Shown one piece after another: positions 2,575 through 24,783 of a DNA stretch of 27,019 bases; within the stretch, counting starts at the first letter, position 1, and every line of letters starts with the position of its first letter. A model generated the notes under the pieces. That model saw only the letters and a program-made list of their open reading frames with translations. It did no database searches and was not told the origin of the DNA. This DNA comes from a virus. The position numbers and the translations under genes are program-made. The stretch spans positions 1 through 27,019 of the IMG/VR virus record IMGVR_UViG_3300037502_000162, one strand, 5' to 3'.

Positions 2575-2761
2575 TGATGTAGCCCTCTTCGATAAGCCGT
2601 TGTGCTGTCCTGCCATACCATCCTTGCAACTGATATGCAAGGCCTGTGTCGTGCAGGTGCTGCCATGCCTGTTGCATCATGTCTTCGTCATCGCACTCGA
2701 TGAAGCCCTCGGCAATGCCACAGGCAGTGAAACTGTCCATCTGTTCCACAGTGTCAAGCAT
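2567..2761 (-). CDS. Hypothetical small acidic phage protein, 64 aa
   Basis: The ATG at 2761 is preferred over an in-frame GTG at 2770 because the Shine-Dalgarno GAGGAG then sits 8 bases upstream, in the GAGTGACACAA-ATG context shared with other genes of this block. The product begins MLDTVEQMDSFTACG, is acidic ('ECDDEDMMQQAWQHL') and predicted helical. It may be a small anti-host or regulatory protein but no family is recognised. Its SD overlaps the stop of the upstream 72-aa gene, suggesting coupling. Confidence 0.7.
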   Translation of the reverse strand: MLDTVEQMDSFTACGIAEGFIECDDEDMMQQAWQHLHDTGLAYQLQGWYGRTAQRLIEEGYINA

Positions 2762-2773
2762 TTGTGTCACTCC

Positions 2774-2992
2774 TCACCCTGCAAAGTGTCTGATGCGGCG
2801 CTTGTTAGCCTTGTGCTCAGCGTAGATGCTAAGCTTGCCAACATGCAGCGCAGTCATGCTGTCGCCACGCTCGATACGCAGAGCACGGCGCTTGATGCGG
2901 CGCACACGAAGCAGCCCCTTGAGGCCAAGCACATTGAAGCGGAAGCCGCGTGTGTTGTCATTCAGCGGCATGGTAGCACAGATCAGGAACAT
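2774..2992 (-). CDS. Hypothetical basic phage protein, 72 aa
   Basis: The ATG at 2992 is preceded by GAGGAG at good spacing. The product is strongly basic in its middle ('LLRVRRIKRRALRIERGDS', about residues 27-45) and near its end ('HKANKRRIRHF'), suggesting nucleic-acid or membrane-surface binding. No domain is recognised. It stops 13 bases before the start of the next gene. Confidence 0.65.
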   Translation of the reverse strand: MFLICATMPLNDNTRGFRFNVLGLKGLLRVRRIKRRALRIERGDSMTALHVGKLSIYAEHKANKRRIRHFAG

Positions 2993-3008
2993 GGTGTTCT
3001 CCTCGTTG

Positions 3009-3083
3009 TCACAGTGTCAGGAACAGGTAGCAGATGCTGCATAGCACAGCGAAGCAGGTCGTGTCAACTATGTTGTTTAGCAT
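3009..3083 (-). CDS. Possible 24-aa hydrophobic peptide
   Basis: The gap between the 90-aa gene (stop 3090) and the 72-aa gene contains a 24-codon frame starting at ATG 3083 and ending in TGA at 3009. Its start context, GGGTGACACAAC-ATG, is almost the same as that of the neighbouring genes, which is the main reason to call it. The peptide begins MLNNIVDTTCFAVLCSIC and is hydrophobic over residues 10-24, enough for one membrane span. It could instead be an untranslated spacer. Confidence 0.45.
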   Translation of the reverse strand: MLNNIVDTTCFAVLCSICYLFLTL

Positions 3084-3089
3084 GTTGTG

Positions 3090-3362
3090 TCACCCGTTAT
3101 CAGATACAGCATCAGCAACCTCAGACGCGATGCTGCCGACAGCCATGCGGCAATGGTGCAAAGCATCGAGGATGCGGCGGCGATCATCAATGCAAGCATC
3201 CTCGCCTGCATCTGTTGTGAGGTAGTTGCGACCATGCAACACGTTGCTGCATAGCTTGGCCTGTGCCGCATCTATTGCACTCATGGCGTCAGATAGCGCC
3301 ATGTAAGCATCAGCGAAATCAGCATAGGTGTTGCCATTGAGGTTCGGCTTAGCAGAGATCAT
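3090..3362 (-). CDS. Hypothetical helical phage protein, 90 aa
   Basis: The ATG at 3362 follows AGGAG in the block-typical context AGGAGTGACACAAC-ATG. The product is alanine/aspartate-rich and largely helical ('YADFADAYMALSDAMSAIDAAQ', about residues 13-34, in part), with two cysteines and two histidines near the middle that do not form a clear zinc motif. No family is recognised. The gene is well separated from both neighbours. Confidence 0.75.
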   Translation of the reverse strand: MISAKPNLNGNTYADFADAYMALSDAMSAIDAAQAKLCSNVLHGRNYLTTDAGEDACIDDRRRILDALHHCRMAVGSIASEVADAVSDNG

Positions 3363-5782: not shown

Positions 5783-6037
5783 ATGGCTAAGTCCCCTGCA
5801 TGGCAGCGTAAAGAAGGCAAAGACCCTGCTGGCGGCTTGAATGCCAAAGGCAGGGCTTCAGCACGTGCTCAAGGCATGAATCTGAAGCCTCCTGCTCCCA
5901 ATCCAAAGACAGATAAAGATAAAAAGAGGCGAAAAAGTTTTTGTGCTCGATCCGCAGGACAGATGAAAATGTTCCCTGAGGCTGCAAAAGACCCTGAGAG
6001 TAGGCTTCGTAAGGCTAGGCGCGCATGGAACTGCTGA
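5783..6037 (+). CDS. Small basic phage protein, DUF6321-like, 84 aa
   Basis: Begins MAKSPAWQRKEGKDPAGGLN. The 'SPAWQRKEGK-x-P-x-GGLNAKGR' start and the 'RRKSFCARSAGQMKM' centre (about residues 49-63) recur in a family of small phage proteins I recall as DUF6321-like; the family has no known function. The product is strongly basic and probably binds nucleic acid. A GTG at 5777 is in frame but ATG 5783 is the better start. It overlaps the endonuclease VII gene by 13 bases. Confidence 0.8.
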   Translation: MAKSPAWQRKEGKDPAGGLNAKGRASARAQGMNLKPPAPNPKTDKDKKRRKSFCARSAGQMKMFPEAAKDPESRLRKARRAWNC

Positions 6038-6435
6038 CCTGTACAAAGTGCAAGACTGAAAAGCCTGCTGATTTGCAGCATTTTCCTCCTCACAACAAGA
6101 AGAAGAATGGGCTTGACAGTTGGTGCAGAGAATGCAGAAGCGCATATCGCAGCAGTATTAATCGTGGTGCCTTTCGTTCTGTAATATCAGACACTGCTTT
6201 GATTGACATGAAGGCATCTGTAACTTCTTGCGTTATCTGTGGGTCAAACGAAAAACTTGTTGTTGATCACGATCACGCTACAGGACAGATTCGTGGTATG
6301 CTGTGCGGGCACTGCAACAGAGGCTTAGGTCATTTTCGTGACGATCCTATGCTGCTTGAGTTTGCTAGGGTGTATCTTTTGTCAAACAGTAGTGACCCTG
6401 AAGCAGAAGAGTATCTAGAAAAACATAGTGCTTGA
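6025..6435 (+). CDS. Recombination endonuclease VII-like HNH nuclease, 136 aa
   Basis: Matches the endonuclease VII family (T4 gp49 type), which cleaves branched DNA such as four-way junctions before packaging. Residues 6-9 (CTKC) and 34-37 (CREC) form an N-terminal zinc-finger-like pair, and C69-x2-C72 with C94-x2-C97 form the core zinc site. The catalytic-type motif is 'VVDHDHATGQIRGMLC' (about 79-94) followed by 'CNRGLGHFRDD'. The extra N-terminal zinc ribbon is common in phage relatives. Its role here is probably resolving replication or recombination intermediates; homing is an alternative. Confidence 0.9.
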   Translation: MELLTCTKCKTEKPADLQHFPPHNKKKNGLDSWCRECRSAYRSSINRGAFRSVISDTALIDMKASVTSCVICGSNEKLVVDHDHATGQIRGMLCGHCNRGLGHFRDDPMLLEFARVYLLSNSSDPEAEEYLEKHSA

Positions 6436-13073: not shown

Positions 13074-13937
13074 AAAGTAAATACGCTTTCTGTCGCTACC
13101 TTTTCGTGGTAACACGATCAAAATAAACTTCGTGAACTGCTGGAAAACTTTTATTCTGTCTCACGCTACAACATAACTGGCAACAGTAAGTGTGAATGCT
13201 TGAAAAGAGAGACAGTTAAGCAATCAGCAGCCAAGCGTCTCACTGAGATGAAGGTTCAGAGGCCATCCCGTCAGGGAGTAGGGGAAACCCGAAGCGCGAA
13301 GCCCCTGTTACGCAGGGTGAAGATATGGTCCAAAGCAACTTTAATGTTTGACCAGCGAAAGCTGAAGTACCAAAAGGTAGAAACATGCAATACGTACTGT
13401 ACAAGGCGACATCGCCTTCTGGAAGAACATACATAGGCATTACAAATAACTTCAAGCGTAGAATGAAAGAACACGGGAGTAGTCCTTACGCTTTTGGCAA
13501 AGCGTTACGCAAGTACGGCAGAGAAAACTTTAACTACGAGTTTGAGTTGTATCCTGACGTAGAAGCAGCCTTGACAAGAGAGGCGGAACTTGTTACTGTA
13601 GAGGCGGTTAAGTCAAAGCGACTCTACAACGAGTCTGTCGGTGGAGTATTCAGCGACTCGTTGAGAAACATGAATCCGATGCACAATCCTGAAGTTCTAA
13701 GTAGACACCCGAATTTGTTTACATCAGAGAATAACCCTATGAACGATCCAGAAGTACGCGAAAAGGCTAAAGCATCACATGAACCTTACAAGAAAAAGGT
13801 TTCTATAGATGGCGTTGTGTACGTAGGTGTTAGAGAGGCAGCACGGCAACTAAACTCGTATAGGCAGTTTGTTGTACATAGGCTAAAATCTTCTAACTAT
13901 CCAACATGGTTCTACGTCAAAGATTAAAGTTGCTTTG
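13074..13937 (+). ncRNA. Group I intron in terL with GIY-YIG endonuclease gene
   Basis: Core segments are visible in order: P (AACTGCTGG, 13135-13143), Q (AATCAGCAGCCAAG, from 13222), R (AAGGTTCAGAGGCCAT, ending 13266) and S (GGTGAAGATATGGTCC, 13316-13331). P7 pairs GGCCAT (13261-13266) with ATGGTC (13325-13330). P1 pairs exon GGTGGT with GCTACC, ending in the expected U-G pair at the splice site; TCGTG/CACGA (13104-13117) forms a P2-like hairpin. The intron ends in G (13937), as group I introns do. Subgroup IA is likely. The endonuclease gene lies downstream of the core, in the P9 region. Confidence 0.9.
13385..13927 (+). CDS. GIY-YIG homing endonuclease, 180 aa (intron-encoded)
   Basis: Residues 3-18 carry the GIY-YIG signature in the form YVLY...TYIG, followed by R25/R26 and H30; the catalytic glutamate is probably one of E66/E68. 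A linker region contains two NUMOD3-like repeats ('MNPMHNPEVLSRHPNLF' and 'NNPMNDPEVREKAKASH', about 95-132), and the C-terminus has a NUMOD1-like helix-turn-helix ('SIDGVVYVGVREAARQLN', about 139-156). This is the I-TevI-like layout of catalytic and DNA-binding ends. It should cut intron-lacking terminase genes near the insertion site and spread the intron. AAAAGG upstream of ATG is the ribosome-binding site. Confidence 0.92.
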   Translation: MQYVLYKATSPSGRTYIGITNNFKRRMKEHGSSPYAFGKALRKYGRENFNYEFELYPDVEAALTREAELVTVEAVKSKRLYNESVGGVFSDSLRNMNPMHNPEVLSRHPNLFTSENNPMNDPEVREKAKASHEPYKKKVSIDGVVYVGVREAARQLNSYRQFVVHRLKSSNYPTWFYVKD

Positions 13938-22515: not shown

Positions 22516-22523
22516 AAAAGTGC

Positions 22524-22552
22524 TTGACAAATAGAATTACCTATGATATAAC
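22524..22552 (+). promoter_or_regulatory. Sigma70-type promoter for the major capsid gene
   Basis: TTGACA (22524-22529), 17-base spacer, TATAAC (22547-22552) followed by TAT, matching the promoters at 5109 and 5630. It starts 9 bases after the scaffold stop and gives the capsid gene its own transcript, beginning near 22559. High capsid demand explains an extra promoter. Confidence 0.82.
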
Positions 22553-22559
22553 TATAGGT

Positions 22560-22796
22560 ATGACAATGGGCTGGTAGCTGCGTAGCGGACGCTGGCCCAA
22601 TAAGTCTAAGCAGCCCCGTAAGGATACCTGCTTAGACTTTGACTAAAGCCTAAACAACGACATGAGACTCACCTGTAACAGCAGGCCCGTTTCATGTAGT
22701 GTCGGCCAATGCTACATGAGACGCACCCTGAAATGTGCAGCCTCTACATGCAGTGTTTAGCTACAACAAAGCCAAACATTCATGGAGGATACTACA
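22560..22796 (+). promoter_or_regulatory. Long structured 5-prime leader of the capsid gene
   Basis: Non-coding, about 240 bases. AAGTCTAAGCAG (22602-22613) pairs exactly with CTGCTTAGACTT (22628-22639). TCATGTAG (22692-22699) pairs with CTACATGA (22712-22719), and CTACATG appears again at 22744-22750 as a competing partner. TGGGC/GCCCA near 22567-22599 make a third stem. The words CATGAGACTCACC (22661) and CATGAGACGCACC (22715) are near-identical repeats. GGAGG sits 8 bases before ATG. The structure may stabilise the mRNA or regulate capsid translation; it may also be processed into a small RNA. Confidence 0.6.
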
Positions 22797-22979
22797 ATGG
22801 CTTTTCAAACTGCTGCAGGCTATACCAACCTGCCCAATGGCAATTTCAGTAGCGTAATCTACTCGAAAAAAGTCCAACTCGCGTTCCGTAAGGCCACCGT
22901 TGTCGGTGCGATTACGAACTCGGATTACTTCGGTGAAATCGCTAATCAGGGTGACACCGTTCGTATCATCAAAGAGCCT
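22797..22979 (+). CDS. Major capsid protein, exon 1 (61 codons)
   Basis: Begins MAFQTAAGYTNLPNGNFSSV with GGAGG upstream. The text 'VIYSKKVQLAFRKATVVGAI' and 'SDYFGEIANQGDTVRIIKEP' is the conserved N-terminus of a podovirus major capsid family. After RIIKEP the frame turns into intron and ends within nine codons. Relatives continue as in exon 2 (EISVAAY). Bases GCCT (22976-22979) pair with GGGC (22988-22991), ending in U-G at the splice site. Spliced length is 357 residues. Confidence 0.92.
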
Positions 22980-23892
22980 AGAATTTTGGGCCTTCTGGCG
23001 GCATAACGTCAGTAAGATAATCCTGTGAATTGCTGGAACCCTAAGTCTTAGGATATGGGAATCAGCAGCCAAGCCCCGAGAGGGGAAGGTTCAACGACTA
23101 GGATATACTTATAATCAAGTAGTGGCTCGGCGTAGCTAACGAAAGGGAAAAACATGAACGCACGTAAACGTGGCATCCTTTATGGGATGGCTATAGGTGA
23201 TGGTTGTATCTCCTTGAATAAGAGTGCAAAAGACGATACAGCACGGTTAATCATAGGACATGGACCTATGCAACTGGCTTATCTTAAAGATAAGGCGCGT
23301 CTTCTTCATTCTATTCTTGGAGGAAAAGAAATACCTATATATACACACAAAAGTTACAATCACTCTACTCAAAAAGAGTACACGAACCATCAGTTGTATC
23401 GTAATGAAGCCTACTTTAGGCAGATGCACAGAGTGATGTATCCACAAGGCAAAAAACTCTTTACGGAACAGCTTCTTAGTTATCTAACAGACTACAGCTT
23501 AGCACTGTGGTATATGGATGACGGAAGCGGCACTATTTCAAAGAACGCAAAAACAAAAGCGCCTTGCGGTTGTATGACACGTATCTCTACGTATTGTTCA
23601 AAATATGAAGCAGAACTTCTTAAGGAGTGGTTTCTTGACAAGTACAAAATAGAACCTAAGTTTGATGTGGATAAGCGCAGCAACAAGTATTCTTTGCGGT
23701 TTAACACAAACGACTCTAGGACGTTTGTATCTGTCGTGGCACCATACGTATTTCCTTCTATGAAGTATAAACTTGCTCATGTAGACAAGTATATCCCACG
23801 AGCGCAGGACACCCTAAGGGGTGAAGATATAGTCTGAACTTTAGGGAAACCTAAAGGTATGCGAAATTAAAAAGGCATACGTAACTGTTTTG
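22980..23892 (+). ncRNA. Group I intron in the capsid gene with LAGLIDADG endonuclease
   Basis: P (AATTGCTGG, 23028-23036), Q (AATCAGCAGCCAAG, from 23060), R (GAAGGTTCAACGACTA, ending 23100) and S (GGTGAAGATATAGTC, 23820-23834) are all present. P7 pairs GACTA (23096-23100) with TAGTC (23830-23834). P1 pairs exon GCCT with GGGC. P10 pairs exon 2 GAAAT (23893-23897) with ATTTT (22983-22987), strongly supporting both splice sites. It ends in G (23892). The endonuclease gene lies between R and S, so within the P8 region, and its 3-prime end overlaps the core. Confidence 0.92.
23154..23837 (+). CDS. LAGLIDADG homing endonuclease, 227 aa (intron-encoded)
   Basis: Two LAGLIDADG motifs are present: 'ILYGMAIGDG' (residues 8-17; D16 catalytic) and 'LALWYMDDG' (about 116-124), about 105 residues apart as in single-chain enzymes. 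GAAAGGG upstream of ATG is a good ribosome-binding site. The enzyme should cut capsid genes lacking the intron. Its last codons (GEDIV then stop) are read from the ribozyme S segment, so protein and RNA constraints overlap there. It is unrelated to the GIY-YIG enzyme of the terminase intron. Confidence 0.92.
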   Translation: MNARKRGILYGMAIGDGCISLNKSAKDDTARLIIGHGPMQLAYLKDKARLLHSILGGKEIPIYTHKSYNHSTQKEYTNHQLYRNEAYFRQMHRVMYPQGKKLFTEQLLSYLTDYSLALWYMDDGSGTISKNAKTKAPCGCMTRISTYCSKYEAELLKEWFLDKYKIEPKFDVDKRSNKYSLRFNTNDSRTFVSVVAPYVFPSMKYKLAHVDKYIPRAQDTLRGEDIV

Positions 23893-24783
23893 GAAATCTC
23901 GGTTGCTGCGTATGCTCGTGGCACTCAGATCACGCCGCAAGACCTTGATGACGAAGACTTTTCGCTCATCATCGACAAAGCGAACTACTATGCGTTCAAA
24001 GTTGATGACATCGAAGCTGCGCATTCGCATGTCAACTTCATGGACCTTGCGACCAACCGTGCTGCCTATCGTCTTGCTGACCAGCATGACCAAGAAGTTC
24101 TTGGCTACCTGTCTGGCTACAAGCAGTCGGCTCTGCACTCCGCTGCTGACACCGTTAATGACATCGTGAACGGCACGAAAGCTATCTCGTCGGCTGGTTC
24201 GGATGAACTTCTGACTGGCATGAAGTTGATCAAGAGTTCGTTTGGCAACATCACCACTGTTGGTGCTGGCGATCACTCGATCCCCGTTGCTGCTCGTCTT
24301 CCGGGCGCTACGTCGCTTCCGACCGACTACGTGTCGCCTGCCATGCTCGTTTCGCGTATGGCTCGTCTGCTTGACCAGCAGAACGTGGAATCGACGGGTC
24401 GCTGGCTCGTTGTCGATCCTGTGATGCTTGAAGTCCTCCGCGATGAAGATTCGCGTCTGCTTCAGGCCGAGTGGGGTCAGTCGGGTGCGCTGCGTAATGG
24501 CCTCGTGCTCAGCAACTTCCACGGCTTCCGTGTTCACGTGTCGAACAACCTGCCGAAAAAGGGCACTGGTCCGGGTACCACTGGTACTGGCAACCAGAAC
24601 AACAACTTCGGTGTCGTCGTTGCTGGTCATGATTCGGCTGTCGCCACTGCTGAGCAGATCAGCAAGACAGAAACCTATCGCGATCCTGACTCGTTTGCTG
24701 ACATTGTTCGGGGTATGCACCTCTATGGCCGTAAAATCCTTCGTCCTGAAGCGATTGTTACCGCCAAGTACAACCTCGCGTAA
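23893..24783 (+). CDS. Major capsid protein, exon 2 (296 codons plus stop)
   Basis: Continues the capsid as 'EISVAAYARGTQITPQDLDD' with 'DKANYYAFKVDDIEAAHSHV', 'MDLATNRAAYRLADQHDQEV' and 'SPAMLVSRMARLLDQQNVES', ending 'GRKILRPEAIVTAKYNLA'. These are the E-loop, spine and axial-type regions of an HK97-fold capsid in this family; positions are not certain. There is no own start codon with ribosome-binding site. Serine is nearly always TCG and codon ends are C-rich, unlike the portal or scaffold, fitting very high expression. Confidence 0.93.
   Translation, partial: EISVAAYARGTQITPQDLDDEDFSLIIDKANYYAFKVDDIEAAHSHVNFMDLATNRAAYRLADQHDQEVLGYLSGYKQSALHSAADTVNDIVNGTKAISSAGSDELLTGMKLIKSSFGNITTVGAGDHSIPVAARLPGATSLPTDYVSPAMLVSRMARLLDQQNVESTGRWLVVDPVMLEVLRDEDSRLLQAEWGQSGALRNGLVLSNFHGFRVHVSNNLPKKGTGPGTTGTGNQNNNFGVVVAGHDSAVATAEQISKTETYRDPDSFADIVRGMHLYGRKILRPEAIVTAKYNLA

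Follow-up and report, generated by a model that had tools for sequence, protein, structure and literature searches.

A group I intron encoding an I-SceI-like LAGLIDADG endonuclease in the major capsid gene of an uncultured HMO-2011-like podovirus

In an uncultured, marine-type virus that infects bacteria, a group I intron of 913 nucleotides interrupts the major capsid gene after codon 61; the intron carries the gene of a LAGLIDADG endonuclease. The window, that is, the whole stretch of DNA that was analysed, comprises 27,019 nucleotides (positions 1 to 27,019 of the IMG/VR record IMGVR_UViG_3300037502_000162). The best joint explanation of the data, with a probability of about 0.93, is a self-splicing, IA-like group I intron that encodes a homing enzyme.

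The interrupted capsid gene

The capsid gene is present in the window as two exons:

22797..22979, plus strand: major capsid protein exon 1, 61 codons, with a GGAGG ribosome-binding site upstream
23893..24783, plus strand: major capsid protein exon 2, 296 codons and stop, matching PHROG 267 major head protein (7.1e-49)

Joined, the exons give an open frame of 357 amino acids (MAFQ...RIIKEP/EISVAAY...YNLA and stop), in which the insertion lies after codon 61, in phase 0, between KEP and EISV. The joined protein aligns without gaps with uninterrupted relatives, and exon 1 and exon 2 are contiguous, with zero gap, in about 78 relatives (viral contigs) among the matches listed. The insertion is therefore real and exact, and the initial annotation, which had the frame break after RIIKEP and resume at EISVAAY 913 bases later, is confirmed. 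The nearest uninterrupted relative among the matches listed, L004, is 92% and 87% identical in the two exons. Judged by these comparisons, the codon-61 intron appears rare, since 76 of the 78 usable matches among the best 80 to exon 1 are uninterrupted; one is interrupted only by a poor match. In the isolated HMO-2011-type phages (CRP-1, CRP-9, CRP-13, HMO-2011 and others), the capsid gene runs without interruption over the exon-2 region; the capsid loci of HMO-2011 and ctYwJ313 were read directly. An intein was also considered and rejected, because a stop codon follows 27 nt into the insertion and 913 nt is not a multiple of three.

Exon 2 is 78.7% identical to that of Roseobacter phage CRP-9 and 69.3% to that of HMO-2011, and the contig has Pfam matches to the SU10-type portal and adaptor. 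By the homology of the capsid gene and its neighbours, the host virus is assigned to the HMO-2011-like podoviruses. The structure prediction for the capsid protein (18-row alignment) gave a pLDDT of 32.5, too low to locate the junction on the capsid fold. The 5' leader of the gene (22520-22796) contains, besides TTGACA-17-TATAAC, a number of strong hairpins (about -94 kcal/mol), and is conserved at 87-90% in L004, L136 and L137. It is a possible regulatory RNA; a promoter scan gave no score above shuffles.

The ribozyme

The following elements make up the intron core:

22980..23892, plus strand: group I intron, 913 nt, ending in G, with P7.1/P7.2 (IA-like) layout
22995..23012, plus strand: P2 hairpin (fold)
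23021..23027, plus strand: P3 5' strand, pairing with 23803-23809 (P3', within the endonuclease ORF; covariation)
23031..23067, plus strand: P4/P5 domain (fold, covariation)
23068..23090, plus strand: P6/P6a (fold, covariation)
23096..23100, plus strand: P7 5' strand GACUA, pairing with UAGUC at 23830-23834 (100% paired in 20 introns)
23101..23110, plus strand: P7.1 5' strand, pairing with 23787-23796, with the endonuclease ORF between both strands
23122-23140: P7.2 hairpin (by fold only)
23810..23823, plus strand: P8 hairpin (fold, covariation)
23839..23880, plus strand: P9 and P9.1 hairpins (fold, covariation)

The Rfam model RF00028 matches positions 22970-23856 over its whole length (1-253) with 60.6 bits (gathering threshold 50; E 2.9e-13). 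Many family members are missed at the gathering threshold; at E 0.01, all three introns of the contig L129, described below, are detected. The Rfam placement of P3' and P8 in the 5' end of the ORF was rejected as wrong, as covariation puts these strands at its 3' end. With the ORF interior removed, the unconstrained fold recovers P1, P2, P3, P4, P5, P6, P6a, P7.1, P8, P9 and P9.1 at -89 kcal/mol (z -5.43), and none of 200 shuffles is as good. P7 is a pseudoknot and cannot show in an unconstrained fold.

Across 20 introns from several insertion sites, 98.7% of the cells in core helices are paired. Double changes occur in 97 cells against 25.9 in shuffles (0 of 500), a score obtained with the structure drawn on one of the 20 sequences and of a type that kinship among sequences inflates. 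The control in which helix partners are slid, however, keeps the relatedness and yet fails, with pairing falling to 31-49%. P7 is never broken in the 20 introns, and the earlier pairing of GACTA with TAGTC is correct. Despite its coding 3' strand, P7.1 has double changes in 6 of 10 pairs (nine introns), and the position of P7.1/P7.2 between P7 and P3' makes the intron IA-like. The group I intron that had been proposed for the major capsid gene is thus upheld by the Rfam match, the covariation of the helices and of P1 and P10 with the exons, and the intron-less homologues. The intron is predicted to self-splice. That an intron in this gene needs very efficient splicing is a reasonable inference, one already made for mycobacteriophage LittleE (PMC3706429).

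Splice sites and guide sequence

Both ends of the intron are defined by short pairings with the exons:

22976..22979, plus strand: P1 5' exon strand GCCU, with U.G at the splice site; a GC pair becomes AU in L129
22983..22991, plus strand: internal guide sequence, AUUUU (P10 strand, 22983-22987) followed by GGGC (P1 strand, 22988-22991)
23004..23006, plus strand: in-frame UAA stop, 27 nt into the intron in the exon-1 frame
23893..23897, plus strand: P10 3' exon strand GAAAU, pairing with AUUUU of the guide sequence

Covariation of P1 and P10 was counted in nine codon-61 introns. The exon sequence GAGCCU goes with GGGC in the window and GAACCU with GGGU in L129, and P10 is formed by GAAAU/AUUUU in the window, GAAGU/ACUUU in L131 and L202, and GAUGUUUC/GAAGCAUU in L129. 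As P1 and P10 compensate changes in the exons, the guide sequence tracks the host codons on both sides, and both splice sites are therefore fixed. The intron has the U.G pair at the 5' splice site in P1, the terminal G and P10 expected of group I. Splice sites at 22979/23893 and a P10 of GAAAT with ATTTT had been given in the initial annotation, and both stand: compensatory changes back P10, and the canonical P1 U.G pair (GCCU/GGGC), which it did not include, is present at the 5' site.

At codons 43/44, P1 is also matched to the exon (GGAU/GUCC, GACU/GGUC, GAGU/GCUC), and the junction shifts by at least one nucleotide with the codon used, as predicted from the need for a U at the 5' splice site. 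For the first intron of L129, the alignment program sets a splice site that lacks a clear P1. An in-frame stop lies at most 33 nt from the 5' splice site in every complete capsid intron examined, and at sites 43/44 it is mostly the first codon.

The endonuclease and its overlap with the ribozyme

The open reading frame of the intron runs into the catalytic core:

23154..23837, plus strand: I-SceI-like LAGLIDADG homing endonuclease, 227 aa, with a Shine-Dalgarno sequence AAAGGG at 23142
23787..23834, plus strand: double-function segment, in which endonuclease residues 212-227 are also P7.1', P3', P8 and P7'

I-SceI is the enzyme of a yeast mitochondrial rRNA intron. The endonuclease of the window matches Pfam LAGLIDADG_2 (1.5e-23) and the PDB profile of I-WcaI/I-SceI (6e-21), and its AlphaFold model (pLDDT 91.9) has a TM score of 0.75 to I-WcaI. 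It contains two LAGLIDADG motifs, LYGMAIGDG and ALWYMDDG, and G11, D16 and M121-D122-D123-G124 are invariant across 23 homologues, so that motifs, catalytic acids and fold are those of the I-SceI-like enzymes. I-SceI and I-WcaI (PDB 1r7m, 6x1j), which are intron-encoded and non-phage, are the nearest solved structures by profile and fold, but identity to them is only 21-24% in the structural alignment. The initial annotation mentioned neither the endonuclease nor the overlap of its ORF with the ribozyme core, and it also lacked a second group I intron of the contig, in the terminase gene.

The last 16 codons of the endonuclease also form P7.1', P3', P8 and P7'. Homologues translate the conserved P3' element (GAGYGC) in two frames and use all three for P7'. 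Relative to the start of P7', their ORFs stop at points between 13 nt upstream and 63 nt downstream, and the codon-61 intron of L129 has an overlap frame unlike that of its own clade. In the protein model, confidence is high up to residue 211, and disorder sets in at about residue 220. It is therefore the RNA that is conserved here, not the protein tail. The arrangement is 'core creep', proposed in 2011 (PMC3073962), and both predictions of that proposal, variable extension length and a dispensable tail, agree with the intron family. Since these codons are core helices, a ribosome finishing the ORF should transiently unfold the core, and by analogy with I-TevI, endonuclease translation should oppose splicing (PMC3073962, PMC3984707).

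In-frame stops and ORFs running into the intron core are known from earlier work (PMC3073962, PMC3984707). The T4 td intron with I-TevI is likewise a phage intron with an in-frame stop past the 5' splice site and an ORF that enters the ribozyme core, and the capsid intron would share its conflict between translation and splicing (PMC3073962, PMC3984707). In td, however, a GIY-YIG enzyme is encoded in the P6 loop with an overlap of 20 nt, whereas the capsid intron has a LAGLIDADG enzyme between P7 and P3' that overlaps P7.1', P3', P8 and P7'.

A family of capsid introns

Related introns were gathered by a search with the endonuclease alignment, and their exons were mapped with intron-aware alignment. 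The family inserts near codons 43/44, 50 and 61 of the capsid gene; among the matches listed, homologous introns occur at codon 61 in about 11 contigs and at codon 43/44 as 25 distinct introns. The capsid proteins that bear them are as little as about 26% identical to that of the window over the first 160 residues. In L129 (1280-4300), three LAGLIDADG-bearing group I introns lie at codons 43, 50 and 61, each with its own ORF (Rfam E 1.4e-7, 8.8e-8 and 2.5e-14), separated by exons of roughly 24 and 33 nt. Two capsid introns are present in L131; in L128, L134 and L141, a second intron, at codon 96/99, lacks an ORF. In L156, a homologous endonuclease was seen, by eye only, much further downstream in the capsid gene. 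L130 is a fragment twin of L129. L163 has an extra capsid intron at codon 19 (2592-3286), adjoining a codon-43 intron, whose ORF contains LAGFLDGEG and is apparently another LAGLIDADG type. L202 (NVWB01000161.1), binned as Blastopirellula sp., carries a phage capsid gene with the intron and probably comes from a phage rather than from the bacterium of its bin.

In the endonuclease tree, the 35 enzymes from capsid introns form one side of a branch (support 95/96) against 10 from non-capsid places, and among the sequences compared this clade occurs in capsid genes only. Labelled by insertion site, the tree needs 4 changes against a shuffled mean of 18. The match of enzyme and site is not absolute, given that the codon-61 intron of L141 carries an enzyme of codon-44 type. 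The first and last about 120 nt of this intron are 74-93% identical to codon-61 introns, and its endonuclease is 77% identical to the codon-44 enzyme of L134 and 44% to that of the window; the sequences thus point to an endonuclease swap.

Proposed mechanism and alternatives

In the mechanism proposed, the intron would fold around the guide sequence, which would hold both exons through P1 and P10. A two-step, guanosine-initiated reaction would then remove it, join KEP to EISV and restore the capsid protein of 357 aa. Ribosomes translating exon 1 would stop 27 nt into the intron and so would not plough through the ribozyme, while a separate ribosome-binding site would drive synthesis of the endonuclease from unspliced RNA, in competition with the splicing of the same molecule. 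In co-infecting phages whose capsid gene lacks the intron, the enzyme would cleave the conserved KEP/EISV site, and repair would copy the intron across.

The intron is probably mobile through its endonuclease. It might instead be spliced but immobile, the enzyme being a passive leftover or a maturase, that is, a splicing cofactor. Some LAGLIDADG proteins are maturases (PMC3984707), and the presence in the L141 intron of an enzyme related to that of another site would fit. This is unlikely in view of the invariant acidic residues of the active site, the full-length ORFs throughout the family and the activity of I-SceI and I-WcaI as endonucleases. Intron distribution is also patchy among close relatives, with no intron in L004, one at codon 44 in L136 and one at codon 61 in the window.

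A decayed or non-splicing intron, with virions built from another capsid gene, is very improbable. No result of the analysis favours it; all core helices are intact, P1 and P10 are co-adapted with exon changes across the family, the capsid exons show no decay, and the ORFs of the 27 kb in the window, out of a genome of ~55 kb, gave no sign of a second capsid gene. Still less credence is due to a capsid made of two chains, with exon 1 ending at the intron stop and exon 2 starting at TTG 23890. Both parts do appear as open reading frames in the unprocessed list, but no ribosome-binding site precedes this TTG, the protein is a single chain in all isolates and nearly all relatives, and what is inserted is an entire ribozyme, with covarying helices and a guide sequence that tracks both exons. 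An assembly artefact joining an intron contig to the capsid gene, conceivable for a metagenomic contig, is refuted by independent contigs: about ten others from several metagenomes have diverged homologous introns at the identical phase-0 position, one of them in the independently assembled genome-bin contig L202.

Relation to known introns and significance

Phage capsid introns are already known, and the intron of the window adds a member, one with an unusually rich family. RT-PCR, the size of the virion protein and its N-terminal sequence have demonstrated splicing of the LittleE capsid intron (PMC3706429). Like the present case, LittleE has an endonuclease of the LAGLIDADG type and a probable group I intron that splits its major capsid gene; it differs in an ORF on the opposite strand, a different LAGLIDADG resemblance and an unrelated phage group (PMC3706429). 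A search with the capsid-intron endonuclease gave no Mycobacterium phage match. Lactococcal phage Tuc2009, as described in a citing paper (PMC3706429), also has a capsid gene interrupted by a group I intron. In the jumbo phage PhiPA3, the intron endonuclease gp210 has another target, and it too could cleave a gene essential to a co-infecting relative (PMC11620839). The accessible literature, as far as searched, contained no report of this intron family or of an HMO-2011-type capsid intron.

The striking features of the family are that it keeps to a single gene, that its introns can be stacked and that its protein tails change frame. A tentative and rather doubtful extension is that the N-terminal part of the capsid gene is a niche for one mobile-intron lineage, with site-specific branches (codons 43/44, 50, 61 and perhaps about 250), up to three introns per gene, endonuclease exchange, and translation and splicing as alternative fates of the RNA. 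Within this reading, the enzyme would cut the capsid gene of intron-less co-infecting relatives, and the intron would therefore be both a selfish element and a weapon of competition.

Group I capsid introns have so far been known from single cases, and the family permits comparison of neighbouring invasion sites, guides that follow the codons, a moved endonuclease and a segment read in different frames. The ribozyme segment in different protein frames is a natural test of 'core creep' (PMC3073962), and phage competition through cutting of capsid genes becomes testable in an abundant marine phage group. For annotation, the capsid gene of such genomes may be missed or split.

Other features of the contig

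A second group I intron (13074-13937, 864 nt, Rfam 52.2 bits) interrupts the gene of the terminase large subunit within the Walker A motif (GGAAGG/GKS), and has a GIY-YIG/I-TevI-like ORF (13385-13927). It is absent in 79 of the 80 relatives listed, including the 95%-identical L321 and L322, and present in L323. A minus-strand ORF (1756-2425) contains a long low-complexity Ala/Trp/Arg repeat (AARAAAWAAARAAA...), which reads as a Leu-Gly repeat in another frame. A free-standing ORF of Endonuclease VII type (HNH) is found at 6025-6435 (Pfam 9.2e-17).
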